Shown in pieces: positions 19,122 to 52,793 of a stretch of DNA of 64,000 nucleotides. Each line of letters opens with the position of its first letter. The stretch's first letter is position 1. The position numbers and the translations under genes were made by a program. The stretch is from Chamaelirium japonicum (taxonomy: Eukaryota > Streptophyta > Magnoliopsida > Liliales > Melanthiaceae): positions 186,001 to 250,000 of the forward strand of contig CANTAL010000020.1 in assembly GCA_947650365.1 (NCBI GenBank), read 5' to 3'. The notes under the pieces were generated by a model. That model saw nothing but the letters and a program-made list of their open reading frames with translations, did no database searches and was not told the DNA's origin.

Positions 19122-19824
19122 CCTATGAATGAATTAGAATAGATTGTACGAATGAATTAGAATAGATCGTACGAATGAATTAGAATGGATCGTACGAAGG
19201 AATTAGAATGGATCGTACGAATGAATTAGAATGGATCGTACGAATGAATTTGACTAGATCGTATGAATGAATTAGAATGGATCGTACGAAGGAATTAGAA
19301 TGGATCGTACGAATGAATTAGACTGGATCGTACGAATGAATTTGAATGGATACATTTGTGCGAATGAATCTAAATGGATTGTATGAATGAATTACAATGG
19401 ATCGTATGAATAAATTAGAATGGATCGTACGAATGAATTAGAATAGCTCATACGAATGAATTAGAATGAATCGTATGAATGAATTAGAATGGTTACATTC
19501 GTGCGAATGAATTAGAATAGATCGTAAGAATGAATTAGAATGGATCGTACGAATAAATTAGAATGGATCGTGGGAATGAATTAGAATGGATCGTACGAAT
19601 GAATTAGAATGGATCCATCGAATGAGTTAGAATGGATCATACGAATGAATTAGAATGGATTGTACGAATGAATTAGAATGGATTATGCGAATGAATTAGA
19701 ATGGATCGTATGAATGAATAAGAATGGATCGTACGAATGAAGTAGAATGGATCGTTCGAATGAATTAGCATGAATCGTACGAATGTATTAGAATGGATCG
19801 TACGAATGAATTAGAATGAATCGT
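19122..19824 (+). repeat. Block 24 (F)
   Basis: 703 bp, pair of block 44 (702 bp). Phrase E near 19315-19400 leads into phrase C. Confidence 0.94.
19611..19824 (+). repeat. 214-bp phrase C, copy 1
   Basis: Ordered units with GGATCCAYCG, GAGTTAG, TTGTAC, TTGTGCG/TATGCG, GAATAAG, TTAGCATG and ATGTATTAG, ending exactly at the switch GAATGAATCGTA. This copy has CCATCG and GAAGTAG private changes. Confidence 0.93.
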
Positions 19825-20533
19825 ATGATCCATTTTAATTCAATCATCCGATCTATTCTAATTTATTCGCATGAATGTATCCATTCTAATTCATTCGTAC
19901 AATTCATTCTATTTCATTCGTATGATCCATTCTTACTCATTCGTATGATCCATTCTAATTCATTCGTACGATCCATTCTAATTCATTCGTACGATCCATT
20001 CTAGTTCATTCGCACGATCCATTCTAATTCATTCATACGATCCATTCTAATTCATTCATACGATCCATTCTAATTTATTCGCCCGATCCATTCTAATTCC
20101 TTCATACGATCCATTCTATTCGAATGGATCATGCGATCCATTCGAATTCATTCGCACAATCCATTCTAATTAATTCATACGATCCATTCTAATTCATTCA
20201 TACAATGCATTCTAATTCTTTCACACGATCCATTCTAATTCATTCATACGATCCATTCTAATTGATTCGTACAATCCATTCTATTTCATTTGTACGATCC
20301 ATTCTTACTCATTCGTATGATCCATTCTAATTCATTCGTACGATCCATTCTAATTCATTTGTACGATCCATTCTAATTCATTCGTACAATCCATTCTATT
20401 TCATTCTTACGATCCATTCTTACTCATTCGTATGATCCATTCTAATTCATTCGCACGAATGTATCCATTCTAATTCATTCATACAATCCATTCTAATTCA
20501 TTCCGTACGATCCATTCTAATTCATTCGTACGA
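19825..20533 (-). repeat. Block 25 (R)
   Basis: 709 bp against 639 in block 45: a duplicated CTATTTC / CTTACTC stretch (near 20280 and 20396) explains three of the extra units. A 62-codon open frame spans its left edge and is judged spurious. Confidence 0.94.
20118..20147. repeat. 30-bp hairpin cassette, copy 4
   Basis: Loop ATGC, in R block 25. Counterpart in macro-repeat copy 2 is 37519-37548. Confidence 0.95.
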
Positions 20534-20563
20534 TCGTACGAATGAATTAGAATGGATCGTACG
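20504..20563. repeat. 60-bp perfect palindrome at an R-to-F switch
   Basis: Centre 20533/20534, 30-base arms without spacer. Just outside the left arm a single extra C (ATTCCGTACG) breaks symmetry, after which pairing resumes. The same extra C is present at 27895 and 37812, showing common descent of this junction. Confidence 0.93.
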
Positions 20564-20961
20564 AATGAATTAGAATAGATTGTGCGAATGAATTAGAATG
20601 GATCGTACGAATGAATTAGAATGGATCGTACGAATGAATTAGAATGGATCATACGAATAAGTAAGAATGGATCGTATGAATGAATTAGAATGGATCGTAC
20701 GAATGAATTAGAATGGATCGTACAAATAAATTAGAATGGATACATTCGTCCGAATGAATTAGAATGGATCATACGAATGAGTAAGAATGGATCGTACGAA
20801 TGATATAGAATAGATTGTACGAATAAATTAGAATGGATCCAACGAATGAATTAGAATGGATCGTGTGAAAGAATTAGAATGGATTGAATGAATGAATTAG
20901 AATGGATCGTATGAATGAATTAGAATGGATCGTGCGAATGAATTCGAATGGATCGTACGAA
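20534..20961 (+). repeat. Block 26 (F)
   Basis: 428 bp, one unit longer than block 46. Phrase A at 20766-20890 with CCAACG and TTGAATG changes. Confidence 0.94.
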
Positions 20962-20968
20962 TTCATTC
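20936..20968. repeat. Hairpin at F-to-R switch: 11-base arms, 11-base loop
   Basis: Arms GAATGAATTCG and CGAATTCATTC enclose AATGGATCGTA. Each arm contains an EcoRI-type GAATTC, absent from the consensus monomer. Confidence 0.92.
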
Positions 20969-22197
20969 TAATTCATTCATACAATCAATTCTAATTCCTT
21001 CACATGATCCATTCTAATTCATTCGTACGTTCCATTCTAATTCATTAGCACGATCCATGCTAATTCATTCGTTCGATCAATTCTAATTCAATAGCACGAT
21101 CCATTCTAATTCATTCGTACGATCCATTCTAATTCATTCGCACGATCTATTCTAATTCATTCGTAGGATCCATTCTAATTCATTCATACGATCTATTCTA
21201 ATTCTTTCGCACGAATGTATCCATTCTAATTCATTCGCACGAATGTATCCATTCTAATTCATTCGTATGATCCATTCTAATTCATTCGCACGATCCATTC
21301 TAATTCATTCGTACAATCAATTCTAATTCATTCGCACGAATGTATCCATTCTAATTCATTCGTACGATCCATTCTAATTCATTCATAGGATCCATTCTAA
21401 TTCATTCATACAATCCATTCTAATTCATTCGCACGAATGTATTCACTCTAATTCATTCGTACGATCAGTTCTAATTCATTCACAAAATCTATTCTAATTC
21501 ATTCATACGATCCATTCTAATTCATTCACACGAATGTATCCATTCTAATTCATTCATACGATCCATTCTAATTCATTCGTACGGTCCATTCTAATTCACT
21601 CATATGATCCATTCTAATACATTCATACGATCCATTCTAATTCATTTGCACGAATATATCCATTCTAATTCATTCGTACGATCCATTCTAATTCCTTCGT
21701 ACGATCCATTCTAATTCATTCGTACGATCTATTCTATTTCATTCGTACGATCCATTCTTACTCATTCGTACGATCCATTCTAATTCATTCGTCCGATCCA
21801 TTCTAATTCATTCGTACAATCCTTGCTAATTCATTCGTTCGATCAATTCTAATTCATTAGCACGGTCCATTCTAATTCATTCGTACGATCCATTCTAATT
21901 CATTCGCACGATCCATTCTAATTCATTCCTAGGATCCATTCTAATTCATTCATACGATCTATTCTAATTCTTTCGCACGAATGTATCCATTCTAATTCAT
22001 TCGCACGAATGTGTCCATTCTAATTCATTTGTACGATCCATTCTAATTCATTCGCACGATCCATTCTAATTCATTCGTACGATCAATTCTAATTCTTTAG
22101 CACGATCCATTCTAATTCATTCGTACGATCCATTCAAATTCATTCGCACGATCAATTCTAATTCATTCGTACAATCCATTCTATTTCATTCGTACGG
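20962..22197 (-). repeat. Block 27 (R)
   Basis: 1,236 bp, exactly as long as block 47. Phrase D near 21050. Ends ATTCGTACG-GAT-CGTACGAAT, a 9-base inverted repeat with 3-base spacer (22188-22208). Confidence 0.94.
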
Positions 22198-22517
22198 ATC
22201 GTACGAATGAATTAGAATGGATCGTACGAATGAACTAGAATGGATACAATCGTGCGAATGAATTAGAATGGATCGTACGAATGAATTAGAATGGATCGTA
22301 CGAATGAATTAGAATGGATCTTACGAATGAATTAGAATGGATCGTACGAATGAATTAGAATGGATACATTCGTGCGAATGAATTAGAACGGATCGGACGA
22401 ATGAATTAGAATGGATCATACGAATGAATTAGATTGGATCAAATGAATGAATTAGAATGGATCGTACGAGTGAATTAGAATGGATACATTCGTGCGAATG
22501 AATTAGAATGGATCGTG
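22198..22517 (+). repeat. Block 28 (F)
   Basis: 320 bp; block 48 keeps only 56 bp of it. Exit at CGTGCACG. Confidence 0.93.
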
Positions 22518-23328
22518 CACGAATGTATCCATTCTAATTCATTCATACGATCCATTCTGCACAAAGGTATCCATTCTAATCCATTCGTAGGATCCATTCT
22601 AATCCATTCGTACGATCCATTCTAATTCATTCGTACGATCCATTCTAATTCATTCGCTCGAATGTATCTATTCTAATCCATTCGTACGATCCATTCTAAT
22701 CCATTCGTACGATCCATTCTAATTCATTCGGATGAATGTAACCATTGTAATTCATTCATTTGATCCATTCTAATTCATTCGTACGATCCATTCTAATTTA
22801 TTCGTCCGATCCATTCTAATTCATTCGCACGATTGTATCCATTCTAATTCATTCGTACGATCCATTCTAATTCATTCGTACGATCCATTCTAATTCATTC
22901 GTAAGATCCATTCTAATTCATTCGTATGATCCATTCTAATTCATTCGTACGATCCATTCTAAATCATTTGCATGAATGTATCCATTCTAATTCATTCGTA
23001 CAATCCATTCTATTTCATTCATACGATCCATTCTTACTCATTCGTATGATCCATTCTAATTCATTCGTATGATCCATTCTAATTCATTCTTACGATCCAT
23101 TCTATTTCATTCGCACGATCCATTCTAATTCATTCATACGATCCATTCTAATTCATTCCTACGAGCCATTCTAATTCATTCGCCCGATCCATTCTAATTC
23201 ATTCATACAATCCATTCTATTCGAATGGATCATGCGATCCATTCGAATTCATTCGCACGATCCATTCTAATTCATTCATACGATCCATTCTAATTCATTC
23301 ACACGATCCATTCTAATTCATTAGCATG
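22518..23328 (-). repeat. Block 29 (R)
   Basis: Phrase B from 22558 (CACAAAGGTATCC, GCTCGAATG, GGATGAATGTAACC), then reverse phrase A, then the hairpin at 23219. Pair of block 49 (781 bp). Confidence 0.93.
23219..23248. repeat. 30-bp hairpin cassette, copy 5
   Basis: Loop ATGC, in R block 29. Counterpart is 40211-40240. Confidence 0.95.
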
Positions 23329-23349
23329 GATCTAATGAATTAGAATGGA
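23307..23349. repeat. Inverted repeat at R-to-F switch: 18-base arms, 7-base loop
   Basis: Left arm ends CATTCTAATTCATTAG, loop CATGGAT, right arm begins CTAATGAATTAGAATG. The F side carries the marker GGAATATACG at once. Confidence 0.92.
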
Positions 23350-23868
23350 ATATACGAATGAATTAGAATGGATCGTAGAATGGATCGTATGAAATGAATT
23401 AGAATGAATTAGAATGGATCGTACGAATGAATTAGAATGGATCATACGAATGAGTAAGAATGGATCGTACAAATGAAATAGAATGGATTGTACGAATGAA
23501 TTAGAATGGATCCTACGAATGAATTAGAATGGATCGTGTGAAAGAATTAGAATGGATTGTATGAATGAATTAGAATGGATCGTATGAATGAAATAGAATG
23601 GATTGTATGAATGAATTAAAATGGATCGTACAAATGAATTAGAATGGATCGTACGAATGAATTAGAATGGATCATACGAATGAGTAAGAATGGATCGTAC
23701 GAATGAATTAGAATGGATCGTACGAATGAATTAGAATGGATCGTACGAATAAATTAGAATGGATACATTCATCCGAATGAATTAGAATGGATCATACGAA
23801 TGAGTAAGAATGGATCGTACGAATAAAATAGAATAGATTCTACGGACGATTGAATTAGAGTGGATCGT
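23329..23868 (+). repeat. Block 30 (F)
   Basis: 540 bp, same length as block 50. Phrase A at 23439-23563; ends CTACGGACGATTGAATTAG before the GATCGTACGAT switch. Confidence 0.94.
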
Positions 23869-25444
23869 ACGATTTATTCTAATTCATTCGTACGATCCAT
23901 TCTAATACATTCGTACGATTCATGCTAATTCATTCGCACGATCCATTCTAATTCATTCTCACGATCCATTCTTATTCATTCATACGATCCATTATAATTC
24001 ATTCGCACAATCCATTCTAATTCATTCGTACAATCCATTCTAATTCATTCGTATGATCCATTCTAACTCATTCGGTGGATCTATTCTAATTCATTCGTAC
24101 GATCCATTCTAATTCATTCCCACGATCCATTCTAATTTATTCGTACGATCCATTCTAATTCATTCGTACGATCTATTCTAATTCATTCGCAAGAATGTAA
24201 CCATTTTAATTCATTCATACGATTCATTCTAATTTATTCGTATGAGCTATTCTAATTCATTCGTACGATCCATTCTAATTCATTCGTACGATCCATTGTA
24301 ATTCATTCATACAATCCATTTAGATTCATTCGCACAAATGTATCCATTCAAATTCATTCGTACGATCCATTCTAATTCATTCGTACGATCCATTCTATTT
24401 CATTCATACGATCTATTCTAATTCATTCATACAATCCATTCTAATTCTTTCACACAATCCATTCTAATTCATTCGTACGATCCATTCTAATTCATTCGTA
24501 CGATCCATTCTAATTCACTCATATGATCCATTCTAATACATTCATACGATCCATTCTAATTCATTTGCACGAATATATCCATTCTAATTCATTCGTACGA
24601 TCCATTCTAATTCATTCATACGATCCATTCTAATTCATTTGCACGAATTTATCTATTCTAATTCATTCGTACGATCCATTCTAATTCCTTCGTACGATCC
24701 ATTCTAATTCGTTCGTACGATCCATTCTAATTCATTCGTACGATCCATTCTAATTCATTAATATGATCCATTCTAATTCATTCGTACGATCCATTCTAAT
24801 TCATTAGCACGATCCATTCTAATTCATTCTACGATCCATTCTAATTCATTCGTACGATCCATTCTAATTCATTCGTACGATCCATTCAAATTCATTCGTA
24901 AGATCCATTCTAATTCATTCGTACGATCCATTCTAATTCATTCATACGATCCATTCTAATTCATTCGCACGAATGTATCCATTCTAGTTCATTCGTACGA
25001 TCCATTCTAATTCATTCGTACGATCCATTCTAATTCATTCGCACGATCCATTCTAATTCATTCGTACGATCCATTCTAATTCATTCATACGATCCATTCT
25101 AATTCATTCGCACGAATGTATCCATTCTAATTCATTCATACGATCCATTCTACTTCATTCGTACTATCCGTTCTAATTCACTCATACGATCCTTCTAATT
25201 CATTCATACGATCCATTCTAATTCATTTGCACGAATATATCCATTCTAATTCATTCGTACGATCCATTCTAATTCCTTCGTACGATCCATTCTAATTCCT
25301 TCGTACGATCCATTCTAATTAATTCGTACGATCCATTCTAATTCATTCGTATGATCCATTCTAATTCATTCGTACGATCCATTCTTACTCATTCGTACGA
25401 TCCATTCTAATTCATTCATACAATCCATTCTAATTCTTTCGTTC
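23869..25444 (-). repeat. Block 31 (R)
   Basis: Second copy of the TTCGGTGGATC stretch, then a TTTGCACGAATATATCC unit series. 66 bp shorter than block 51. Exit at TTCGAA 25442-25447. Confidence 0.94.
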
Positions 25445-25664
25445 GAATGAATTAGAATGGATACCTTTGTGCATATGAATTAGAATGGATCGTACGAATG
25501 AATTAGAATGGATCATATTAATGAATTAGAATGGATCGTACGAATGAATTAGAATGGATACATTCATGCGAATGAATTAGAATGGATCGTGCGAATCAAT
25601 TAGACTGGATCATGCGAATGAATAAGAATAGATCGTGCTAATGAATTCGAATTGATCGAACGAA
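25445..25664 (+). repeat. Block 32 (F)
   Basis: 220 bp, same length as block 52. Starts with GGATACCTTTGTGC and ends GATCGAACGAATTC. Confidence 0.94.
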
Positions 25665-26482
25665 TTCATTCTAATTCATTCATACAATCCATTCTAATTC
25701 TTTCACACGATCCATTCTAATTCATTCGTACGATCCATTTTAATTCATTCGTGCAATCCATTCTATTTCATTCGTACGAATCCATTCTAATTCATTCGTA
25801 CAATGTATTCTATTCCATTCTAATTCATTCGTACGATCCATTCTTACTCATTCGTACGATCCATTCTAATTCATTCGTACGATCCATTCTATTCTTGTTC
25901 ATTCGTATGATCCATTCTAATTCATTCGTATGATCCATTCTTATTCATTCTTACACATTCGTATGATCCATTCTAATTCATTCGGACGAATGTATCCATT
26001 CTAATTTATTCGTACGATCCATTCTAATTCATTCGTACGATCCATTCTAATTCATTCGTAAGATCCATTCTAATTCAATCGTATGATCCATTCTAATTCA
26101 TTCGTACGATCCATTCTAATTCATTCGTACGATCCATTCTAATTCATTCATACGATCTATTCTAATTCATTCATTCGTACGATCCATTCTAATTCATTCG
26201 TACGATCCATTCTAATTCATTCGCACGATCCATTCTAATTCATTCATAGGATCCATTCTAATTCATTCATACAATCCATTCTAATTCTTTCATACGATCC
26301 ATTGTAATTCATTCGTACGATCCATTCTAATTCACTCATACGATCCATTCTAATACATTCATACGATCCATTCTAATTCATTTGCACGTATATATCCATT
26401 CTAATTAATTCATACGATCCATTCTAATTCATTCGTACGATCCATTCTAATTCATTCGTACGATCCATTCTAATTCCTTCGT
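25665..26482 (-). repeat. Block 33 (R)
   Basis: Pair of block 53. Contains slips (CATTCATTCG near 26168; CTATTCTTGTTC near 25889). A 60-codon open frame at 25751-25933 arises where CTTACTC and CTATTTC variants remove the TAA. Confidence 0.93.
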
Positions 26483-27215
26483 ACGAATGAATTAGAATAG
26501 ATACATTTGTGCGAATGAATTAGAATGCATCGTACGAATGAATTAGAATAGATCGTATGAATGAATTAGAATGGATCGTACGAATGAATTAGAATGGATC
26601 TTACGAATGAATTAGAATGGATCGTACGAATGAATTAGAATGCATCGTACGAAAGAATTAGAATGGATATATTCGTGCGAATGAATTAGAATGGATCGTA
26701 CGAATGAATTAGACTGGATCGTACAAATGAATTTGAATGGATACATTTGTGCGAATGAATCTAAATGGATTGTATGAATGAATTACAATGGATCGTACGA
26801 ATGAATTAGAATGGATCGTACGAATGAATTAGAATAGCTCATACGAATGAATTAGAATGAATCGTATGAATGAATTAGAATGGTTATATTCGTGCGAATG
26901 AATTAGAATAGATCATATGAATGAATTAGAATGGATCGTACGATTAAATTAGAATGGATCGTGGGAATGAATTAGAATGGATCGTACGAATGAATTAGAA
27001 TGGATCCACCGAATGAGTTAGAATGGATCATACGAATGAATTAGAATGGATTGTACGAATGAATTAGAATGGATTGTGCGAATGAATTAGAATGGATCGT
27101 ATGAATGAATAAGAATGGATCGTACGAATGACTTAGAATGGATCGTGAGAATGAATTAGCATGAATCGTACGAATGTATTAGAATGGATCGTACGAATGA
27201 ATTAGAATGAATCGT
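26483..27215 (+). repeat. Block 34 (F)
   Basis: 733 bp, pair of block 54 (732). Same phrase E then phrase C order as block 24, so blocks 24 and 34 are themselves about 7.4 kb-spaced relatives. Confidence 0.94.
27002..27215 (+). repeat. 214-bp phrase C, copy 2
   Basis: Same unit order and length, ending at the same switch. Private variants are ATGACTTAG and CGTGAGAATG. Confidence 0.93.
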
Positions 27216-27924
27216 ACGATCCATTCTAATTCAATCGTCCGATCCATTCTAATTCATTCGCATGAATGTATCCATTCTAATTCATTCGTACAATCCATTC
27301 TATTTCATTCGTACGATCCATTCTTACTCATTCGTATGATCCATTCTAATTCATTCGTATGATCCATTCTAATTCATTCGTACGATCCATTCTAATTCAT
27401 TCGTACGATCCATTCTAATTCATTTGCACGATCCATTCTAATTCATTCATACGATCCATTCTAATTCATTCATACGATCCATTCTAATTCATTCGCCCGA
27501 TCCATTCTAATTCATTCGTACGATCCATTCTATTCGAATGGATCATGCGATCCATTCGAATTCATTCGTACGATCCATTCTAATTCATTAATACGATCCA
27601 TTCTAATTCATTCACACGATCCATTCTAATTCATTTGTACGATCCATTCTAATTCATTCGTACAATCCATTCTATTTCATTTGTACGATCCATTCTTACT
27701 CATTCGTATGATCCATTCTAATTCATTCGTATGATCTATTCTAATTCATTTGTACGATCCATTCTAATTCATTCGTACAATCCATTCTATTTCATTCGTA
27801 CGATCCATTCTTACTCATTCGTATAATCCATTCTAATTCATTCGCACGAATGTATCCATTCTAATTCATTCATACAATCCATTCTAATTCATTCCGTACG
27901 ATCCATTCTAATTCATTCGTACGA
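27216..27924 (-). repeat. Block 35 (R)
   Basis: 709 bp, one unit shorter than block 55. Hairpin at 27532; ends in a 60-bp palindrome. Confidence 0.94.
27532..27561. repeat. 30-bp hairpin cassette, copy 6
   Basis: Loop ATGC, in R block 35. Counterpart is 44571-44600. It stands 317 bp after the F-to-R switch. Confidence 0.95.
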
Positions 27925-27954
27925 TCGTACGAATGAATTAGAATGGATCGTACG
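27895..27954. repeat. 60-bp perfect palindrome at an R-to-F switch
   Basis: Centre 27924/27925. Same structure and same extra C as at 20504. Its macro-repeat counterpart at 44986 has lost perfection through CATACG and CGTTCG changes. Confidence 0.93.
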
Positions 27955-28697
27955 AATGAATTAGAATAGATTGTGCGAATGAATTAGAATGGATCGTACG
28001 AATGAATTAGAATGGATCGTACGAATGAATTAGAATGGATCGTACGAATGAGTAAGAATGGATCGTATGAATGAATTAAAATGGATCGTACGAATGAATT
28101 AGAATGGATCGTACGAATAAATTAGAATGGATACATTCATCCGAATGAATTAGAATGAATTCGTATATGAGTAAGAATGGATCGTACGAATGAAATAGAA
28201 TGGATTGTGCGAATGAATTAGATTGGACCGTACGAATGAATTAGAATGGATACATTCGTGCGAATGAATTAGAATGGATCAGACGAATGAATTAGAATGG
28301 ATCGTACGAATGAATTAGAATGGATCGTACGAATAAATTAGAATGGATACATTCGTCCGAATGAATTAGAATGGATCATACGAATGAGTAAGAATGGATC
28401 GTACGAATGAAATAGAATAGATTGTACGAATGAATTAGAATGGATCCTACGAATGAATTAGAATGGATCGTGTGAAAGAATTAGAATGGATTGTATGAAT
28501 GAATTAGAATTGATCGTGCGAATGAATTAGAATGGATCGTACGAAAGAATTATAATGGATCGTGCTAATGAATTAGAATTGATCGAACGAATGAATAAGC
28601 ATGGATCGTGCTAATGAATTAGAATGGAACGTACGAATGAATTAAAATGGATCGTGTGAAAGAATTAGAATGGATTGTATGAATGAATTAGAATGAA
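27925..28697 (+). repeat. Block 36 (F)
   Basis: 773 bp, pair of block 56 (774). Phrase A at 28373-28497, then TTGATCGAACG / AAGCATGG units. Ends GAATGAATTC. Confidence 0.94.
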
Positions 28698-29302
28698 TTC
28701 GTACGATCTATTCGAATTCATTCGCACGATCCATTCTAATTCATTCATACGATCCATTCTAATTCATTCATACAATCCATTCTAATTCTTTCACACGATC
28801 CATTCTAATTCATTCGTAGGATCCATTCTAATTCATTCGTACAATCTATTCTATTTCATTCGTACGATCCATTCTTACTCATTCGTATGATCCATTCTAA
28901 TTCATTCTGACGAATGTATCCATTCTAATTTATTCGTACGATCCATTCTAATTCTTTCACACGATCCATTCTAATTCATTCGTAGGATCAATTCTAATTC
29001 ATTCGTACAATCTATTCTATTTTATTCGTACGATCCATTCTTACTCATTCGTATGATCTATTCTAATTCATTCGGACGAATGTATCCATTCTAATTTATT
29101 CGTACGATCCATTCTAATTCATTCGTACGATCCATTCTAATTCATTCATATGATCAATTCTAATTCATTCGTCCGATCCATTCTAATTCATACGCACGAA
29201 TGTATCAATTCTAATTCATTCGTACGGTCCATTCTAATTCATTCGCACAATGCATTCTATTTCATTCGTACGATCCATTCTTACTCATTTGTATGATCCA
29301 TT
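28698..29302 (-). repeat. Block 37 (R)
   Basis: Phrase A in reverse from about 28769, so F and R copies face each other across 28697. An internal repeat (GTAGGATC at 28813 and 28980) makes it 166 bp longer than block 57. Confidence 0.93.
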
Positions 29303-29965
29303 ATGGATACATTCGTGCGAATGAATTAGAATGGATCATATGAATGAGTAAGAATGGATCGTACGAATGAAATAGAATGGATTGTGCGAATGAATTAGAA
29401 TGGATCGTACGAATGAATTAGAATGGATCGTGTGAAAGAATTAGAATGGATTGTTTGAATGAATTAGAATAGATCGTATGAATGAATTTGAATGGATCAT
29501 ACAAATGAATTAGAATGGATCGTACGAATAAATTAGAATGAATCGTACGAATGAATTTGAATGGATCTTACGAATGAATTAGAATAGATCATACGAATGA
29601 ATTAGAATGGATAGTATGAATAAATTAGAATGGATACATTCGTCAGAATGATTAGAATGGATCGTACGAATGAATTAGAATGGATATATTCGTGCAAATG
29701 AATTAGAATGGATCATATGAATGTATTAGAATAGATCGTATGAGTGAATTAGAATGGATCGTACGAATGAATTAGAATGGATCGTATGAATGAATTAGAA
29801 TGGATACATTCGTGCGAATGAATTAGAATTGATCGTACGAATGAATTAGAATGGATCGTGCGAATGAATTAGAATGGATCGTACGAATGAATTAGAATGG
29901 ATCGTACGAATGAACTAGAATGGATAGATTCGTGCGAATGAATTAGAATGGATCGTACGAATGTA
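29303..29965 (+). repeat. Block 38 (F)
   Basis: Entered at CCATTATGG. Phrase A variant at 29333-29457. After GAATGATTAG (29646) it joins a segment that in copy 2 lies 1,380 bp further on. Confidence 0.93.
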
Positions 29966-30426
29966 ATACATTCCTACAATCCATTCTAATTCATTCGCCC
30001 GATCCATTCTAATTCATTTATACGATCCATTCTATTCGAATGGATCATGCGATCCATTCGAATTCATTCACACGATCCATTCTAATTCATTCATACGATC
30101 CATTCTAATTCATTCATACAATGCATTCTAATTCTTTCACACGATCCATTCTAATTCATTCGTACGATCCATTCTAATTCATTCGTACAATCCATTCTAT
30201 TTCATTTGTACGATCCATTCTTACTCATTCGTATGATCCATTCTAATTCATTCGTACGATCCATTCTAATTCATTTGTACGATCCATTCTATTTCATTCG
30301 TACGATCCATTCTTACGCATTCGTATGATCCATTCTAATTCATTCGCACGAATGTATCCATTCTAATTCATTCATACAATCCATTCTAATTCATTCTGTA
30401 CGATCCATTCTAATTCATTCGTACGA
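29966..30426 (-). repeat. Block 39 (R)
   Basis: Hairpin at 30034; one unit shorter than block 61. Exit GTACGA|TTGTAC, a decayed form of the 60-bp palindrome. Confidence 0.93.
30034..30063. repeat. 30-bp hairpin cassette, copy 7
   Basis: Loop ATGC, in R block 39. Counterpart is 48311-48340. Confidence 0.95.
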
Positions 30427-38246: not shown

Positions 38247-38253
38247 TTCATTC
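38221..38253. repeat. Hairpin at F-to-R switch (counterpart of 20936)
   Basis: Same 11-base arms and 11-base loop, perfect. Confidence 0.92.
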
Positions 38254-40319: not shown

Positions 40320-40341
40320 GGATCTAATGAATTAGAATGGA
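40299..40341. repeat. Inverted repeat at R-to-F switch (counterpart of 23307)
   Basis: Identical arms and loop, shift 16,992. GGAATATACG follows, as also in the small block at 13727. Confidence 0.92.
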
Positions 40342-40859: not shown

Positions 40860-42501
40860 ACGATTTATTCTAATTCATTCGTACGATCCATTCTAATACA
40901 TTCGTATGATTCATGCTAATTCATTCGCACGATCCATTCTAATTCATTCATACGATCCATTCTTATTCATTCATACGATCCATTCTAATTCATTCGCACA
41001 ATCCATTCTAATTCATTCGTACAATCCATTCTAATTCATTCGTATGATCCATTCTAACTCATTCGGTGGATCCATTCTAATTTATTCGTACGATCCATTC
41101 TAATTCATTCCCACGATCCATTCTAATTTATTCGTACGATCCATTCTAATTCATTCGTACGATCTATTCTAATTCATTCGCACGAATTTAACCATTCTAA
41201 TTCATTCATACGATTCATTCTAATTCATTCGTATGAGCTATTCTAATTCATTCGTTCGATCCATTCTAATTCATTCGTACGATCCATTGTAATTCATTCA
41301 TACAATCCATTTAGATTCATTCGCACAAATGTATCCATTCAAATTCATTCGTACGATCCATTCTAATTCATTCGTACGATCCATTCTAATTCATTCATAC
41401 GATCTATTCTAATTCATTCATACAATCCATTCTAATTCTTTCACACGATCTATTCTAATTCATTCGTACGATCCATTCTAATTCATTCGTACGATCCATT
41501 CTAATTCACTCATATTATCCATTCTAATACATTCATAAGATCCATTCTAATTCATTTGCACGAATATATTTATTCTAATTCATTCGTACGATCCATTCTA
41601 TTTCATTCATACGATCCATTCTAATTCATTTGCACGAATATATCCATTCTAATTCATTCGTACGATCCATTCTAATTCCTTCGTACGATCCATTCTAATT
41701 CGTTCGTACGATCCATTCTAATTCATTTGTACGATCCATTCTAATTCATTAATATGATCCATTCTAATTCATTCGTACGATCCATTCTAATTCATTAGCC
41801 CGATCCATTCTAATTCATTCGTACGATCCATTCTAATTCATTCGTACGATCCATTCTAATTCATTCGTAAGATCCATTCTAATTCATTCGTACGATCCAT
41901 TCTAATTCATTGGTACGATCCATTCTAATTCATTCGCACGAATGTATCCATTCTAGTTCATTCGTACGATCTATTCTAATTCATTCGTACGATCCATTCT
42001 AATTCATTCGCACGATCCATTCTAATTCATTCGTACGATCCATTCTAATTCATTCATACGATCCATTCTAATTCATTCGCACGAATGTATCCATTCTAAT
42101 TCATTCATACGATCCATTCTACTTCATTCGTACTATCCGTTCTAATTCACTCATACGATCCATTCTAATTCATTCATACGATCCATTCTAATTCATTTGC
42201 ACGAATATATCCATTCTAATTCATTCGTACGATCCATTCTAATTCCTTCGTACGATCCATTCTAATTCCTTCGTACGATCCATTCTATTTCATTCGTATG
42301 ATCCATTCTAATTAATTCGTACGATCCATTCTAATTCATTCGTATGATCTATTCTAATTCATTCGTACGATCCATTCTTACTCATTCGTACGATCCATTC
42401 TAATTCATTCATACAATCCATTCTAATTCATTCCGTACGATCCATTCTAATTCATTCATATGATCTATTCTTTCATACAATCCATTCTAATTCTTTCGTT
42501 C
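40860..42501 (-). repeat. Block 51 (R)
   Basis: Third copy of the TTCGGTGGATC stretch. An extra stretch near 42421-42490 with a cut unit (CTATTCTTTCATAC) accounts for its greater length than block 31. Confidence 0.94.
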
Positions 42502-42721
42502 GAATGAATTAGAATGGATACCTTTGTGCATATGAATTAGAATGGATCGTACGAATGAATTAGAATGGATCATATTAATGAATTAGAATGGATCGTACGA
42601 ATGAATTAGAATGGATACATTCATGCGAATGAATTAGAATGGATCGTGCGAAACAATTAGACTGGATCATGCGAATGAATAAGAATAGATCGTGCTAATG
42701 AATTAGAATTGATCGAACGAA
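42502..42721 (+). repeat. Block 52 (F)
   Basis: Pair of block 32, same 220 bp. Confidence 0.94.
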
Positions 42722-43522
42722 TTCATTCTAATTCATTCATACAATCCATTCTAATTCTTTCACACGATCCATTCTAATTCATTCGTACGATCCACTCTTA
42801 CTCATTGGTACGATCCATTCTAATTCATTCGCACAAATGTATCTATTCTAATTCATTCGTACGAATCCATTCTAATTCATTCGTACAATCTATTCTATTC
42901 CATTCTAATTCATTCGTATGATCCATTCTTACTCATTCGTACGAACCATTCTAATTCATTCGTACGATCCATTCTATTCTAGTTCATTCGTACGATCTAT
43001 TCTAATTCTTTCGTATGATCCATTCTTATTCATTCTTACACATTCGTATGATCCATACTAATTCATTCGGACGAATGTATCCATTCTAATTTATTCGTAC
43101 GATCCATTCTAATTCATTCGTACGATCCATTCTAATTCATTCGTAAGATCCATTCTAATTCATTCGTACGATCCATTCTAATTCATTCGTACGATCCATT
43201 CTAATTCATTCATACGATCTATTCTAATTCATTCATTCGTACGATCCATTCTAATTCAATCGTACGATCCATTCTAATTCATTCGCACGATCCATTCTAA
43301 TTCATTCATAGGATCCATTCTAATTCATTCGTACAATCCATTCTAATTCTTTTATACGATCCATTCTAATTCATTCGTACGATCCATTCTAATTCACTCA
43401 TACGATCCATTCTAATACATTCATACGATCCATTCTAATTCATTTGCACGAATATATCCATTCTAATTCATTCGTACGATCCATTCTAATTCATTCGTAC
43501 GATCCATTCTAATTCCTTCGTA
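42722..43522 (-). repeat. Block 53 (R)
   Basis: Pair of block 33, 17 bp shorter; the CATTCATTCG slip is shared (near 43222). Confidence 0.93.
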
Positions 43523-44254
43523 CAAATGAATTAGAATGGATACATTTGTGCGAATGAATTAGAATGCATCGTACGAATGAATTAGAATGGATCGTATGAA
43601 TGAATTAGAATGGATCGTACGAATGAATTAGAATGGATCTTACGAATGAATTAGAATGGATCGTACGAATGAATTAGAATGCATCGTACGAAAGAATTAG
43701 AATGGATATATTCGTGCGAATGAATTAGAATGGATCGTACGAATGAATTAGACTGGATCGTACAAATGAATTTGAATGGATACATTTGAGCGAATGAATC
43801 TAAATGGATTGTATGAATGAATTACAATGGATCGTACGAATGAATTAGAATGGATCGTACGAATGAATTAGAATAACTCATACGAATGAATTAGAATGAA
43901 TCGTATGAATGAATTAGAATGGTTATATTTGTGCGAATGAATTAGAATAGATCGTACGAATGAATTAGAATGGATCGTACGAATAAATTAGAATGGATCG
44001 TGGGAATGAATTAGAATGGATCGTACGAATGAATTAGAATGGATTCACCGAATGAGTTAGAATGGATAATACGAATGAATTAGAATGGATTGTACGAATG
44101 AATTAGAATGGATTGTGCGAATGAATTAGAATGGATCGTATGAATGAATAAGAATGGATCGTACGAATGATTTAGAATGGATCGTGCGAATGAATTAGCA
44201 TGAATCGTACGAATGTATTAGAATGGATCGTACGAATGAATTAGAATGAATCGT
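43523..44254 (+). repeat. Block 54 (F)
   Basis: Pair of block 34; phrase E (with TTTGAGCG) then phrase C. Confidence 0.94.
44041..44254 (+). repeat. 214-bp phrase C, copy 4
   Basis: Counterpart of copy 2; begins GGATTCACCG and has ATAATACG and ATGATTTAG changes. Confidence 0.93.
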
Positions 44255-44986
44255 ACGATCCATTCTAATTCAATCGTCTGATCCATTCTAATTCATTCGC
44301 ATGAATGTATCCATTCTAATTCATTCGTACAATCCATTCTATTTCATTCGTACAATCCATTCTTACTCATTCGTATGATCCATTCTAATTCATTCGTATG
44401 ATCCATTCTAATTCATTCGTACAATCCATTCTAATTCATTCGTACGATCCATTCTAATTCATTCGCACGATCCATTCTAATTCATTCATACGATCTATTC
44501 TAATTCATTCCTACAATCCATTCTAATTCATTCACCCGATCCATTCTAATTCATTCATACGATCCATTCTATTCGAATGGATCATGCGATCAATTCGAAT
44601 TCATTCGTACGATCCATTCTAATTCATTCATATGATCCATTCTAATTCATTCATACAATGCATTCTAATTCTTTGACACGATCCATTCTAATTCATTCGT
44701 ACGATCCATTTTAATTCATTCGTACAATCCATTCTATTTCATTTGTATGATCTATTCTTACTCATTCGTATGATCCATTCTAATTCATTCGTATGATCCA
44801 TTCTAATTCATTTGTACGATCCATTCTAATTCATTCGTACAATCCATTCTATTTCATTCGTACGATCCATTCTTACTCATTCGTATGATCCATTCTAATT
44901 CATTCGCACGAATGTATCTATTCTAATTCATTCATACAATCCATTCTAATTCATTCTGTACGATCCATTCTAATTCATTCATACGA
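44255..44986 (-). repeat. Block 55 (R)
   Basis: Pair of block 35 plus one unit; decayed hairpin at 44571; exit junction has two mismatches. Confidence 0.93.
44571..44600. repeat. 30-bp hairpin cassette, copy 11 (decayed)
   Basis: The right arm reads GATCAATTCGAAT, one mismatch to the left arm. This is the only copy with a broken arm. In R block 55. Confidence 0.93.
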
Positions 44987-45760
44987 TCGTTCGAATGAAT
45001 TAGAATGGATCGTACGAATGAATTAGAATAGATTGAGCGAATGAATTAGAATGGATCGTACGAATGAATTAGAATGGATCGTACGAATGAATTAAAATGG
45101 ATCGTACGAATGAGTAAGAATGGATCGTACGAATGAATTAGAATGGATCGTACGAATGAATTAGAATGGATCGTACGAATAAATTAGAATGGATACATTC
45201 GTCCGAATGAATTAGAATGGATCATACGAATGAGTAAGAATGGATCGTACGAATGAAATAGAATGGATAGTGCGAATGAATTAGAATGGACCGTACGAAT
45301 GAATTAGAATGGATACATTCGTGCGAATGAATTAGAATGGATCGGACGAATGAATTAGAATGGATCGTACGAATGAATTAGAATGGATCGTACGAATAAA
45401 TTAGAATGGATACATTCGTCCGAATGAATTAGAATGGATCATACGAATGAGTAAGAATGGATCGTACGAATGAAATAGAATAGATTGTACGAATGAATTA
45501 GAATGGATCCTACGAATGAATTAGAATGGATCGTCTGAAAGAATTAGAATGGATTATATGAATGAATTAGAATTGATCGTGCGAATGAATTAGAATGGAT
45601 CGTACGAATGAATTAGAATGGATCGTGCTAATGAATTAGAATTGATCGAACGAATGAATAAGCATGGATCGTGGTAATAAATTAGAATAGAACGTACGAA
45701 TGAATTAGAAAGGATCGTGTGAAAGAATTAGAATGGATTGTATGAATGAATTAGAATGAA
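44987..45760 (+). repeat. Block 56 (F)
   Basis: Pair of block 36; phrase A at 45436-45560 with GTCTGAAAG. Confidence 0.94.
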
Positions 45761-46199
45761 TTCGTACGATCCATTCGAATTCATTCGCATGATCCATTCT
45801 AATTCATTCATACGATCCATTCTAATTCATTCATACAATCCATTCTAATTCTTTCACACGATCCATTCTAATTCATTCGTAGGATCCATTCTAATTCATT
45901 CGTACAATCTATTCTATTTTATTCGTGCGATCCATTCTTACTCATTCGTATGATCTATTCTAATTCATTCGGACGAATGTATCCATTCTAATTTATTCGT
46001 ACGATCCATTCTAATTCATTCGTACGATCCATTCTAATTTATTCATATGATCCATTCTAATTCATTCGTTCGATCCATTCTAATTCAATCGCACGAATGT
46101 ATCCATTCTAATTCATTCGTACGGTCCATTCTAATTCATTCGCACAATGCATTCTATTTCATTCGTACGATCCATTCTTACTCATTCGTATGATCCATT
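45761..46199 (-). repeat. Block 57 (R)
   Basis: Pair of block 37 without the internal repeat. Exit CCATTATGG. Confidence 0.93.
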
Positions 46200-46696
46200 A
46201 TGGATACATTCGTGCGAATGAATTAGAATGGATCATATGAATGAGTAAGAATGGATCGTACGAATGAAATAGAATGGATTGTGCGAATGAATTAGAATGG
46301 ATCGTACGAATGAATTAGAATGGATCGTGTGAAAGAATTAGAATGGATTGTTTGAATGAATTAGAATAGATCGTATGAATGAATTTGAATGGATCATATG
46401 AATGAATTAGAATGGATCGTACGAATGAAATAGAATGAATCGTACGAATGAATTAGAATGGATCTTACGAATGAATTAGAATGGATCGTACGAATGAATT
46501 AGAATGGATCGTACGAATAAATTAGAATGGATACATTCGTCCGAATGATTAGAATGGATCATACGAATGAGTAAGAATGGATCGTACGAATGAAATAGAA
46601 TAGATTGTACGAATGAATTAGAATGGATCCTACGAATGAATTAGAATAGATCGTGTGAAAGAATTAGAATGGATTGTATGAATGAATTAGAATGAA
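46200..46696 (+). repeat. Block 58 (F)
   Basis: Matches block 38 up to GAATGATTAG at 46543 (shift 16,897), then continues into phrase A at 46556-46680 that copy 1 lacks here. Confidence 0.93.
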
Positions 46697-47757
46697 TTCA
46701 TACGATCCATTCGAATTCATTCACACGATCCATTCTAATTCATTCATACGATCCATTCTAATTCATTAATACAATCCATTCTAATTCTTTCACACGATCC
46801 ATTCTAATTCATTCGTAGGATCCATTCTAATTCATTCGTACAATCTATTCTAATACATTCGTACGATCCATTCTTACTCATTTGTATGATCCATTCTAAT
46901 TCATTCGGACGAATGTATCCATTCTAATTTATTCGTACGATCCATTCTAATTCATTCGTACGATCCATTCTAATTCATTCGTACGATCCATTTTAATTTA
47001 TTCGTCCGATCCATTCTAATTCATTCGCACGAATGTATCTATTCTAATTCATTCGTACGATCCATTCTAATTTATTCGTACGATCCATTCTAATTCATTC
47101 GTCAGATCCATTCTAATTCATTCGTACGATCCATTCAAATTCATTCGCACGAATGTATCCATTCTAGTTCATTCGTACGATCCATTCTAATTCATTCGTA
47201 CGATCCATTCTAATTCTTTCGTACGATCCATTATAATTCATTCATACGATCTATTCTAATTCATTCGTACGATCCATTCTAATTCATTCGTACGATCCAT
47301 TCTAATTCCTTCGTATGATCCATTCTAATTCATTCGTATGATCCATTCTAATTCCTTCGTATCCATTCTAATTCACTCATACGATCCATTCTAATTCATT
47401 CGTACGATCCATTCTAATTCATTCATACAATCCATTCTAATTCATTCGCACGAATGTATCCATTCTAATTCATTCTTACGATCAGTTCTAATTCATTCAC
47501 AAAATCTATTCTAATTCATTCATACGATCCATTCTAATTCATTCACACGAATGTATCCATTCTAATTCATTCATATGATCCATTCTAATTCATTCGTACG
47601 ATCCATTCTAATTCACTCATACGATCCATTCTAATACATTCATACGATCCATTTTAATTCATTTGCACGAATATATCCATTCTATTTCATTCGTACGATC
47701 CATTCTTACTCATTCGTACGATCCATTCTAATGCATTCACACGATTGTATCCATTTG
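46697..47757 (-). repeat. Block 59 (R), extra in copy 2
   Basis: No counterpart at this place in copy 1. Its parts (reverse phrase A, 20-bp unit near 47350, CACAAAATC, TTTGCACGAATATATCC) are found elsewhere in the field. Confidence 0.92.
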
Positions 47758-48239
47758 TACGAATGAATTAGAATAGATTATACGAATGAATTAGAATGGA
47801 TCGTACGAATGAATTAGAATGGATCGTACAAAGGAATTAGAATGGATCGTATGAATGAATTAGAATGGATCGTACGAATGAACTAGAATGGATCGTACGA
47901 ATGAATTAGAATGGATCGTACGAAGGAATTAGAATGGATCGTACGAATGAATTAGACTGGATATATTCGTGCAAATGAATTAGAATGGATCATATGAATG
48001 TATTAGAATAGATCGTATGAGTGAATTAGATTGGATCGTACGAATGAATTAGAATGGATCGTATGACTGAATTAGAATGGATACATTCGTGCGAATGAAT
48101 TAGAATTGATCGTACAAATGAATTAGAATGGATCGTGCGAATGAATTAGAATGGATCGAACGAATGAATTAGAATGGATCGTACGAATGAACTAGAATGG
48201 ATACATTCGTGCGAATGAATTAGAATGGATCGTACGAAT
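47758..48239 (+). repeat. Block 60 (F)
   Basis: Starts like blocks 24 and 44 (GATTATACG, CGTACAAAGG), then from 47959 matches the end of block 38 at shift 18,277. Confidence 0.92.
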
Positions 48240-48726
48240 ATAATTCATTCCTACAATCCATTCTAATTCATTCGCCCGATCCATTCTAATTCATTCATAC
48301 GATCCATTCTATTCGAATGGATCATGCGATCCATTCGAATTCATTCGCACGATCCATTCTAATTCATTCATACGATCCATTCTAATTCATTCATACAATG
48401 CATTCTAATTCTTTCACACGATCCATTCTAATTCATTCGTACGATCCATTCTAATTCATTCGTACAATCCATTCTATTTCATTTGTACGATCCATTCTTA
48501 CTCATTCGTATGATCCATTCTAATTCATTCGTATGATCCATTCTAATTCATTTGTACGATCCATTCTAATTCATTCGTACAATCCATTCTATTTCATTCG
48601 TACGATCCATTCTTACTCATTCGTATGATCCATTCTAATTCATTTGCACGAATGTATCCATTCTAATTCATTCATACAATCCATTCTAATTCATTCCGTA
48701 CGATCCATTCTAATTCATTCGTACGA
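48240..48726 (-). repeat. Block 61 (R)
   Basis: Pair of block 39 plus one unit; hairpin at 48311. Confidence 0.93.
48311..48340. repeat. 30-bp hairpin cassette, copy 12
   Basis: Loop ATGC, arms perfect, in R block 61. It is the last copy; none is seen in the final 15.6 kb. Confidence 0.95.
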
Positions 48727-49537
48727 TCATACGAATGAATTAGAATGGATCGTACAAATGAATTAGAATAGATTGTGCGAATGAATTAGAATGGATCGTA
48801 CGAATGAATTAGAATGGATCGTACGAATGAATTAGAATGGATCATACGAATGAGTAAGAATGGATCGTACGATTGAATTAGAATAGATCGTACGAATAAA
48901 TTAGAATGGATATATTCTTCCGAATGAATTAGAATGGATCATACGAATGAGTAAGAATTGATCGTACGAATGAAATAGAATAGATTGTACGAATGAATTA
49001 GAATGGATCCTACGAATAAATTAGAATGGATCGTGTGAAAGAATTAGAATGGATTGTATGAATGAATTAGAACGGATTCGTACGAATGAATTAGAATGTA
49101 TACATTCGTGCGAATGAATTAGAATGGATCGTACCAATGAGTAGGAATGGATCGTACGAATGAAATAGAATGGATTGTGCGAATGAATTAGAATGGATCA
49201 TACGAATGAATTAGAATGGATCGTGTGAAAGAATTAGAATGGATTGTATGAATGAATTAGAATAGATCGTATGAATGAATTTGAATGGTTCGTACGAATG
49301 AATTAGAATGGATCATACGAATGAATTAGAATGGATCGTACGAATGAATTAGAATGGATACATTCGTGTGAAAGAATTAGAATAGATCGTATAAATGAAT
49401 TAGAATGGATCCTATGAATGAATTAGAATGGATCGTGCGAATGAATAAGAATGGATCGTACGAATGAATTAGAATTGATCGAACGAATGAATTAGCATGG
49501 ATCGTGCTAATGAATTAGAATGGAACGTACGAATGAA
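48727..49537 (+). repeat. Block 62 (F)
   Basis: Pair of block 40, 107 bp shorter; phrase A at 48936-49060. Exit GAATTCATACG. Confidence 0.93.
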
Positions 49538-51389
49538 TTCATACGATCCATTCGAATTCATTCTCACGATCCATTCTACTTCATTCATACGATCCATTCT
49601 AATTCATTCATACAATCCATTCTAATTCTTTCACACGATCCATTCTAATTCATTCGTGGGATCCATTCTAATTCATTCATACAATCTATTCTATTTCATT
49701 CGTACGATCCATTCTTACTCATTCGTATGATCAATCCTAATTCATTCGGACGAATGTATCCATTCTAATTTATTCGTACGATCCATTCTAATTCATTCGT
49801 ACGATCCATTCTAATTCATTCGTCCGATCCATTCTAATTCATTCGCACGAAAGTATCCATTCTAATTCATTCATACGATCCATTCTAATTCATTCGTACG
49901 ATCCATTCTAATTCATTCGTAAGATCCATTCTAATTCATTCGTACGATCCATTCTAATTCATTCGTACAATCCATTCTAATTCATTCGCACGAATGTATC
50001 CATTCTAGTTCATTCGTACGATCCATTCTAATTCATTCGTACGATCCATTCAAATTCATTCGCACGATCCATTCTAATTCATTCGTACGATCCATTCTAA
50101 TTCATTCATACGATCCATTCTAATTCATTCGTACGATCCATTCTAATTCATTCGCACAAATGTATCTATTCTAATTCATTCGTACGATCCATTCTAATTC
50201 ATTCACACGATCCTTTCTAATTCATTCGTACGATCCATTCTAATTCATTCGCACGATCTGTTCTTATTCATTCGCACAATCCATTCTAATTTATTCGCAC
50301 GAATGTATCCATTCTAATTCATTTGTACGATCCATTCTAATTCATTTGTACGATCCATTCTAATTCATTCGTATGATCCATTCTAATTCATTCGTACGAT
50401 TCATTCTAATTCATTCGCACGATCTGTTCTTATTCATTCGCACAATCCGTTCTAATTCATTCGCACGAATGTATCCATTCTAATTCATTCGTACGATCCA
50501 TTCTAATTCATTTGTATGATCCATTCTAATTCATTTGTATGATCCATTCTAATTAATTCGTATGATCCATTCTAATTCATTCGTACGATCTATTCTAATT
50601 CATTCATACAATCCATTCTAATTCATTCGCACGAATGTATCCATTCTAATTAATTCGTATGATCCATTCTAATTCATTCGTATGATCTATTCTTATTCAT
50701 TCGCACGATCCAGTCTAATTGATTCGCACGATCCATTCTAATTCATTCGCATGAATGTATCAATTCTAATTCATTCGTATGATCCATTCTAATTCATTAA
50801 TATGATCCATTCTAATTCATTCGTATGATCCATTCTAATTCATATGCACAAAGGTATCCATTCTAATCCATTCGTAGGATCCATTCTAATACATTCGTAC
50901 GATCCATTCTAATTCATTCGCTCGAATGTATCCATTCTAATCCATTCGTACGATCCATTCTAATCCATTCGTACGATCCATTCTAATTCATTCGCATGAA
51001 TGTAACCATTCTAATTCATTCATTTGATCCATTCTAATTCATTCGTATGATCCATTCTAATTCATTCGTCCGATCCATTCTAATTCATTCGCACGAATGT
51101 ATCCATTCTAATTCATTCGTACGATCCATTCTAAATCATTCGTACGATCCATTCTAATTCATTCGTAAGATCCATTCTAATTCATTCGTACGATCCATTC
51201 TAATTCATTCGTACGATCCATTCTAATTCATTCGCACGAATGTATCCATTCAAGTTCATTCCTACGATCCATTCTAATTCATTCGTACGATCCATTCTAA
51301 TTCATTCGCACGATCCATTCTAATTCATTCGTACGATCAATTCTAATTCATTCGCATGAATGTATCCATTCTAATTCATTCGTACGATC
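49538..51389 (-). repeat. Block 63 (R)
   Basis: Pair of block 41 less one unit; phrase B near 50848. Confidence 0.93.
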
Positions 51390-51557
51390 CTGAATTAGAA
51401 TGGATCGTATGAATGAATTAGAATGGATACCTTTGTGCATATGAATTAGAATGGATCGTACGAATGAATTAGAATGGATCATATTAATGAATTAGAATGG
51501 ATCGTACGAATGAATTAGAATGTATACATTCGTGCGAATGAATTAGAATGGATCGTG
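51390..51557 (+). repeat. Block 64 (F)
   Basis: Pair of block 42. Exit CGTGCACG. Confidence 0.93.
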
Positions 51558-52793
51558 CACGAATGTATCCATTCTAATTCATTCGTACGATCCATTCTAA
51601 TTCATTAATATGATCCATTCTAATTCATTCGTACGATCCAGTCTAATTCATATGCACAAAGGTATCTATTCTAATCCATTCGTAGGATCCATTCTAATCC
51701 ATTCGTACGATCCATTCTAATTCATTCGCTCGAATGTATTCATTCTAATCCATTCGTACGATCCATTCTAATCCATTCGTACGATCCATTCTAATCCATT
51801 CGTACGATCCATTCTAATTCATTCGCATGAATGTAACCATTCTAATTCATTCATTTGATCCATTCTAATTCATTCGTACGATCCATTCTAATTCATTCGT
51901 CCGATCCATTCTAATTCATTCGCACGAATGTATCCATTCTAATTCATTCGTACGATCCATTCTAATTCATTCGTACGATCCATTCTAATTCATTCGTACG
52001 ATCCATTCTAATTCATTCGTACAATCCATTCTAATTCATTCGCACGAATGTATCCATTCTAGTTCATTCGTACGATCCATTCTAATTCATTCGTACGATC
52101 CATTCTAATTCATTCGCACGATCCATTCTAATTCATTCGTACGATCAATTCTAATTCATTCGCACGAATGTATCCATTCTAATTCATTCATACGATCCAT
52201 TCAAATTCATTCGTACGATCCATTCTAATTCATTCGTACGATCCATTCTAATTCATTCGTACGATCTATTCTAATTCATTCGCACGAATGTATCCATTCT
52301 AGTTCATTCGTACGATCCATTCTAATTCATTCGCACGATCCATTCTAATTCATTCGTACGATCAATTCTAATTCATTCGTACGATCCATTCTAATTCACT
52401 CATACGATCCATTCTAATACATTCATACGATCCATTCTAATTCATTTGCACGAATATATCCATTCTAATTCATTCGTACGATCCATTCTAATTCCTTCGT
52501 ATGACCATTCTAATTCATTCGTACGATCTATTCTAATTCATTCGTATGATCCATTCTAATTCATTCGTACGATCCATTCTAATTATTTCGTACGATCCAT
52601 TCTAATTCATTCGTACGATCCATTCTAATTCATTCATACAATCCATTCTAATTCTTTCACACGATCCATTCTAATTCATTCGTACGATCCATTCAAATTT
52701 ATTCGTGCAATCCATTCTATTTCATTCGTACGATCCATTCTTACTCATTCGTACGATCCATTCTAATTCATTCACACAAATGTATCCATTCGT
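51558..52793 (-). repeat. Block 65 (R)
   Basis: Begins like block 43 (phrase B near 51657) and ends like it, with most of the middle missing, including the hairpin region. Confidence 0.92.

Follow-up and report, generated by a model that had tools for sequence, protein, structure and literature searches.

The window analysed here, a 64,000-nt stretch of the Chamaelirium japonicum genome (positions 186001-250000 of the 2.1-Mb contig C32), is a single satellite array, made of a 23-bp monomer with a 28-bp variant mixed in, whose blocks alternate in orientation. Our analysis supports the view that a composite of many flipped blocks behaves in this array as one higher-order unit of ~17 kb, far above monomer size, that the unit is present in the window as one tandem dimer, and that the inversions inside it predate the duplication that produced the two copies. 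To account for the dimer and for its relatives elsewhere, we favor a history, to which we assign a probability of about 0.7, in which founder inversions were followed by direct tandem copying, including the 17-kb duplication, and then by copying of chromosome ends onto other ends. All results come from a single assembly (1.5187 Gb, 3253 contigs).

Block orientation was called with a two-orientation hidden Markov model (HMM) over C32:136001-310000, which covers the window and its flanks (174 kb) and was parsed into 203 blocks, the bases being 93.7% identical to the 23/28-bp consensus. Together with self-comparison, this delimits copy A, a macro-repeat of ~17.4 kb at 19127-36498 of the window, and copy B at 36499-52789, which has the same block order and orientation and a truncated right end (like all features below except the markers, these composites are given without strand). 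A first-pass annotation of the window had proposed a macro-repeat at 19122-52793 whose blocks correspond in order, orientation and length; the HMM bounds of 19127-52789 are nearly the same, and order and orientation agree in all 20 A/B block pairs. Gap-free identity is 95.6-99.1% in 20 of 20 pairs, compared with an average of 90.1% (standard deviation 2.3, maximum 97.7%) for 276 other block pairs of like length, a null that includes truly homologous nested blocks at its top and thus makes the test conservative. Block lengths are exactly or nearly equal (1232/1232, 222/222, 733/733, 166/166 and 537/536), three of these having been given previously as 1,236, 220 and 540 bp with slightly different block edges. 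Copy B has one additional -/+ block pair, at 46698-48240, that is missing from A, and the overlapping segment 46400-47660 has an inverted match of 96.4% identity ~84 kb leftward. When gap columns are counted, 4 of the 20 pairs drop to 17-72%, with 163-1880 columns gained or lost; 16 of the 22 A/B indels of at least 10 bp are exact sums of 23s and 28s, that is, whole monomers, and because of the indels the A-B shift ranges from ~16.9 to ~18.3 kb. The homology of A to B starts by 18838 and ends near 34583, the final ~1.6-1.9 kb of A being unpartnered in B. Over the 19 block pairs that precede the last, truncated one, 313 of the 13,321 aligned columns carry a substitution (p = 2.35%). Self-alignment at shifts of 16.85-18.35 kb gave a median best ungapped identity of 97.0%, with 70% of 77 segments of 200 bp at 95% or more, as against a median of 78.2% and a share of 3.9% for random shift ranges of equal size (n = 308), so that the match at these shifts goes well beyond that expected of the satellite at large.

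The breakpoints give the order of events. Their phases are identical in A and B at 17 of the 20 block starts, the exceptions being 19127/36499, 22517/39539 and 31346/49540, and the sharing of phases implies that the flips are older than the duplication, as had been proposed from the sequence at first sight. The two copies are also more alike than their constituent monomers, and the description of a composite of flips as a higher-order repeat far larger than the monomer holds. The further idea that this composite is being amplified as a unit stands for the one duplication that gave the dimer but not for an array: among 39 exact matches to a marker of the unit only dimers and other spacings were seen, with no run of three or more copies head to tail at ~17 kb.

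That marker, M0, is a 46-bp junction sequence at 23316-23361 in copy A (plus strand), with a second copy at 40308-40353. Of its 39 exact matches in the genome, which lie on nine contigs, 24 pair up at spacings of 16.85-18.66 kb, in both orientations, giving 12 dimers on five contigs (six on C5, three on C7, and one each on C6, C32 and C44). The search for further copies proposed in the first-pass annotation was thus rewarded genome-wide but not within C32, where M0 occurs only twice; an exact-match search of this kind misses copies with an altered marker. A second marker, M2 (25427-25474, plus strand; second copy at 42484; 48 exact genome matches), lies at an offset of 2091-2114 from M0 in 10 of 12 A copies and of 2175-2178 in 10 of 12 B copies. 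The third, M4 (33471-33518, plus strand; second copy at 51642), has 213 exact genome matches and is more widespread than the dimer; among the 100 of these that were listed, at least 10 of 12 A copies have it at 10.0-10.4 kb from M0 and at least 5 of 12 B copies at 11.3-11.4 kb. The reach of the markers differs, M0 being found on 9 contigs, M2 on 15, and M4, among the matches listed, also in the interior of C1, C2 and C7, and the pieces of the unit may differ in the age of their spread. Two C5 dimers (at 1.866 and 1.963 Mb), 96,768 bp apart, share identical spacing and marker offsets and are the product either of a large duplication of very recent date or of one introduced in assembly. Divergence was measured in the window and in four 10-kb stretches from other dimer copies. 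The p-distance is 0.58-0.69% between A copies across C32, C5 and C6 and 0.70% between B copies (C32, C5), whereas A and B differ by 2.14-2.35% in the sampled copies; since the A-B divergence exceeds that between contigs, the dimer is older than its spread over contigs.

The dimers share more than satellite DNA. Three 3-kb probes were taken from C32 loci without satellite monomers, at 1.002, 1.502 and 2.000 Mb (~0.8, 1.3 and 1.8 Mb distal to the dimer); 29-40 candidate matches were scored, and the argument uses the top class and its collinearity. All three probes have matches of 99-100% on C5, C6, C7 left, C7 right, C44 and C77, that of the first probe on C5 left being split in two pieces. Scaffold ends are 579-623 kb away from the second probe and 78-110 kb away from the third (600 and 102 kb in C32 itself), so that at the three probes collinear, near-identical sequence is found at like end distances on several scaffolds. 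Measured from the A copy of a dimer, the first probe lies 793 kb away on C32, 786 and 787 kb on C5, 803 kb on C7 left, 767 kb on C44, 863 kb on C6 and 569 kb on C7 right; a second dimer is found 884 kb from the probe on C5 and another 1.11 Mb from it on C7 left, and C6 carries the probe a second time, at 1.17 Mb. On the other side of the dimer, a marker at C32:4542 has nine matches, and on C5, C6 and C7 it recurs in collinear position, 254-297 kb from the dimer (205 kb on C32). From these comparisons it seems that the dimer was multiplied as part of far larger end segments, up to ~2 Mb long, in which homology would run unbroken between the sampled points and the scaffold ends would correspond to true chromosome ends. 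At 97-98% identity the third probe has nine further matches (C57, C157, C3 at 0.41 and 100.0 Mb, C47, C14, C12, C36 and C80). The outermost DNA is thus common to more contigs, and less recently shared, which suggests a layered exchange between chromosome ends.

The switches of orientation are few in kind. The 202 junctions in the 174 kb fall into 33 sequence families, 16 of them singletons, and the three largest plus-to-minus families account for 77 of 101 junctions. Families were formed by single linkage, with up to 3 mismatches allowed in 28; this cutoff also admits 51 of 600 synthetic junctions. They are used in place of phase types, which inflate the number of families, since the two strands can give two parses of the same junction. 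Genome-wide there are 15,249 copies of the main plus-to-minus junction and 5 of an artificial one. Junctions outside the 174 kb were sampled from nine satellite loci, five on C1 and four on C32 (the overlapping loci L001, L002, L003, L005 and L008 on C1 were left out, as were L037-L040); of these junctions, known families accommodate 24 of the 40 on C1 and 29 of the 41 on C32, compared with the 51 of 600 for random-phase synthetic junctions. Founder words were also counted by exact match in 40 kb of C32 and 20 kb of C1: the main junction turned up three times in the former and twice in the latter, and there were no occurrences of several of the rarer words. The surroundings of junctions of the same type are more alike than those of different types (mean identity 0.858 vs 0.772 for plus-to-minus and 0.885 vs 0.782 for minus-to-plus). 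Self-matches of at least 1 kb at 95% identity or more cover 66% of the 174 kb, and inverted ones cover 8%; among self-matches of at least 600 bp, 10 of 10 at 98% or more are direct, and the inverted share goes from 7/22 at 97-98% up to 145/311 at 88-91%. As the youngest matches are all direct, recent copying preserves orientation, and flips of large pieces are old or rare.

In the history that we favor, the window would belong to a centromere unit close to an end of a holocentric chromosome of the repeat-based type. Rare inversions would have created a limited set of founder junctions, and stretches of several to tens of kilobases containing several flips would then have been copied, mostly in direct tandem, by unequal crossing-over or replication-based copying, with orientation patterns inherited as blocks; one such step would have generated the ~17-kb dimer A-B. 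A chromosome end bearing the dimer, its centromere array and distal non-satellite DNA would later have been copied onto other ends; ectopic recombination or break-induced replication, started in or near the shared satellite array, would be the simplest mechanism. The duplication and its place after the flips, the low count of junction families, and the collinear near-identity at the sampled scaffold-end points are direct observations, and a recombination mechanism for the end copying is likely. More tentatively, and with the balance of our judgment somewhat on the other side, whole-end exchange could be a means by which holocentromere units are homogenized and spread, in which case terminal arrays would be recombination sites, a unit with its distal ~2 Mb would move between non-homologous chromosomes, and multi-flip macro-repeats would serve as traceable inherited barcodes.

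A number of observations count against this history. Fifteen of the 39 M0 matches lie outside the ~17-kb pairs, at other spacings, M2 is absent from two A copies and absent or displaced in two B copies, and the divergence evidence is limited to four stretches besides the window. An A-type copy on C7 at 84.19 Mb (C7:84191001-84201000) differs by 2.4-2.5% from the other A copies and by 4.1% from B, has many irregular indels and an M4 offset of 11.8 kb, and is either an older lineage or a poorly polished stretch; it is at odds with a single recent spread. The C32:4542 marker is found as well on two contigs, C9 and C11, that gave no dimer; the probes are repetitive DNA, with hundreds of weaker matches; and C32, C44 and C77 may be alternative haplotigs. 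Dimer-related copies are present at C5:80.9-84.8 Mb, interior to a 93.2-Mb scaffold, all three probes recur in that interior at C5:82.9-83.9 Mb (the third partly), and C5:83.852 Mb resembles a head-to-head join, so that mis-scaffolding is possible there; the sequence at C5:83850717-83853039 is a near-perfect head-to-head inversion point in end-type DNA, possibly a misjoin or a foldback artefact. Among the sampled junctions, 16 of 40 on C1 and 12 of 41 on C32 matched no family; 21 of these 28 lie in two loci that also contain non-satellite DNA (14 of 18 in L035 and 7 of 11 in L030) and 4 in L018 (of 10). Lastly, a large plus-to-minus family of 20 junctions is centered on an 8-bp palindrome, and the 400-bp surroundings of that phase type are 0.818 identical on average, as against 0.772 (median 0.811) for unlike junctions. 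As these values are close, the family may contain repeated events, and the junction families do not prove a single origin.

Some of these points would be expected if the orientation switches, the 17-kb repeat and the copies on several scaffolds had arisen from collapsed, duplicated or mis-scaffolded contigs or from unpurged haplotigs, an explanation that we regard as unlikely. It draws on the size of the assembly (1.5187 Gb, compared with a published 1C value of 1.368 Gb and a primary assembly of 1.526 Gb in the text of PMC10264360), on the head-to-head point at C5:83.852 Mb together with the interior C5 copies, and on the identical offsets of the C5 dimers at 1.866 and 1.963 Mb. However, copies A and B, with 313 substitutions in 13,321 columns and mostly whole-monomer indels, are not one sequence assembled twice, and the 2.000-Mb probe is found at 99-100% in seven places (C5, C6, C7 left, C7 right, C32, C44 and C77), more than the two alleles of a diploid locus. 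To about the same degree we doubt that satellite DNA spread by itself, through extrachromosomal circles or interlocus gene conversion, rather than with whole chromosome ends. Both routes are proposed in the text of PMC10264360, and gene conversion in that of PMC12722358; moreover, among the matches listed, M4 occurs in the interior of C1, C2 and C7 without M0 or M2, which argues that some pieces travelled without the dimer. For the dimer itself, circles or short conversion tracts fail because the distal non-satellite DNA is collinear at 99-100% too, at three probes over 1 Mb, the last of them ~0.1 Mb from scaffold ends.

Two other explanations concern the flips themselves. If flipping had occurred independently at hairpin-prone palindromes (the TCGTACGA core), similar patterns would reflect hot spots and not descent. 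The palindrome-centered family just described would fit such a process, and a core-like word lies within 9 bp of 45% of junctions vs 34% of random positions, but the core is present in only 10 of the 33 families, with no excess over random, same-type surroundings are the more alike when all types are taken together, and block lengths and interiors agree between A and B; hot spots are accordingly quite improbable as the source of the shared pattern. Least probable by a small step is an origin of every switch in strand-switch copying, which would have turned adjoining sequence into a hairpin or palindrome, since, although junctions such as GGATCGTACGATCC are locally palindromic and old foldbacks, later eroded, are a possible source of the switches, no symmetric arms were found around them at 250 or 500 bp, an arm and the reverse complement of the opposite arm scoring on average 0.553 vs 0.567 for the arms of other junctions at 250 bp (135 junctions) and 0.560 vs 0.568 at 500 bp (71 junctions), with only 0.7% and 2.8%, respectively, above the 95th percentile of the null.

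The ~17-kb unit is not special in its array. Over C32:136001-310000 there are also direct repeats at ~11.1, ~14.8, ~12.4 and ~7.4 kb. A partial inverted copy of the unit, identified by self-comparison, lies at 4388-9939, where 5669-9929 matches 37843-33613 (91.2%) and 4389-7651 matches 21706-18467 (89.1%, gaps counted in both). Nested within the unit is an older duplication (+733, -705; HMM blocks and self-comparison) at 26485-27922, which matches 19127-20531 (+700, -705) ~7.4 kb away and recurs in B at 43524-44984. Positions 1-13117 are a portion of a separate macro-repeat domain with a period of ~11.1 kb that extends ~20 kb to the left of the window; its copies are 93-98% identical in the best matches, and it also stands in an inverted relation to the 17-kb unit. 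The longest near-identical pair in the 174 kb is a 9.6-kb direct duplicate at C32:285539-295141 and 300365-309968, with 14.8-kb spacing and 99.35% identity. Elsewhere in the assembly, 59 contigs have a cox1 match of equal 506-bit score over the full model, the matches being 532-aa frames, stop-free in the standard code, on many small contigs; this is in keeping with a plant genome and represents an unpurged organelle surplus.

The satellite array occupies the whole of the window (1-64000) and consists of the 23-bp TCGTACGAATGAATTAGAATGGA and a 28-bp variant carrying GATACATTCGTGC, the spacing of monomers being 23 bp in 1017 cases and 28 bp in 165; closed open reading frames of 100 aa or more are absent from the 64 kb. 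The two forms differ by a 5-bp deletion and one substitution (GGATCGTAC vs GGATACATTCGTGC, both common), and the 9-bp word TTCGTACGA is found inside the tandem consensus, as ATTCGTACGATCC. From 238,363 exact 51-mers genome-wide vs 65 in the window, the satellite is estimated, by extrapolation from the 51-mer density of the window, to make up ~235 Mb or ~15.5% of the genome. The text of PMC10264360 describes for the Chio family of Chionographis japonica 23/28-bp monomers that differ by a 5-bp deletion and one substitution, ~16% of the genome in an assembly of ~1.5 Gb, and an 11.1-fold enrichment in CENH3. The monomer pair, the rule of deletion and substitution, the TTCGTACGA word and the abundance all fit, and on these described features the satellite can be identified, with near certainty, as Chio1/Chio2, the holocentromere repeat of that plant to which CENH3 binds; by analogy with the published family result, the array in the window would bind CENH3. 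A search of published text with 16 monomer letters gave no match. The satellite CUS-TR24 of Cuscuta, another candidate for its identity, was dropped, as the Chionographis papers fitted.

What has been published on Chio agrees with the window in monomers, deletion rule, abundance and mixed orientation: in the text of PMC10264360, forward and reverse arrays are intermixed and a Chio-containing higher-order cluster, CL73, is named, so that alternating orientation and a Chio higher-order cluster are already on record, and the authors suggest that it spread by gene conversion, by circles, or by inversions having one of their breakpoints in satellite arrays (Kuo et al. 2023). The passages compared differ from our account in describing no ~17-kb multi-orientation unit, no recurrence of one, no small set of junction families and no sharing of ends. 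Chama, the macro-monocentromere satellite of the related Chamaelirium luteum, has the 9-bp TTCGTACGA in common with the present array and forms higher-order repeats over hundreds of kilobases, but its monomer is 60 bp and its arrays are uniformly oriented, a contrast with the alternating Chio drawn in the text of PMC12722358; the same 2025 text states that it is unknown how the centromere units of the holocentric plant studied here reached their places along the chromosomes. CUS-TR24 of Cuscuta europaea, as presented in the text of PMC8091179, is likewise a holocentric-plant satellite with segmental duplications and inversions in dot-plots; in contrast to the array here, it is interrupted by simple repeats and LINEs, and the passages compared describe no conserved multi-flip unit.

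In the open-access literature, taken without supplements, we found no direct precedent for orientation-switching higher-order repeats, and in the text available we came upon no account of a multi-flip unit that is conserved, of junction families so few in number or of shared chromosome ends. Orientation blocks and founder junctions are heritable, countable landmarks in an otherwise featureless satellite, and hence they record in what order inversion, duplication and spread took place. For the dimer this order is concrete, with flips first, then the tandem duplication (2.1-2.4%), then the sharing of scaffold ends (0.6-0.7% in the sampled copies) with distal non-satellite DNA, and the near-identical dimers near the ends of other contigs hint at how such centromeres spread. 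Human alpha-satellite higher-order repeats consist of multi-monomer units arranged head to tail in a hierarchy, and these units are mostly of a single orientation and a few kilobases long. The copying of multi-monomer units is common to both systems, whereas the unit described here spans ~17 kb and ~20 orientation blocks and occurs only as a dimer.

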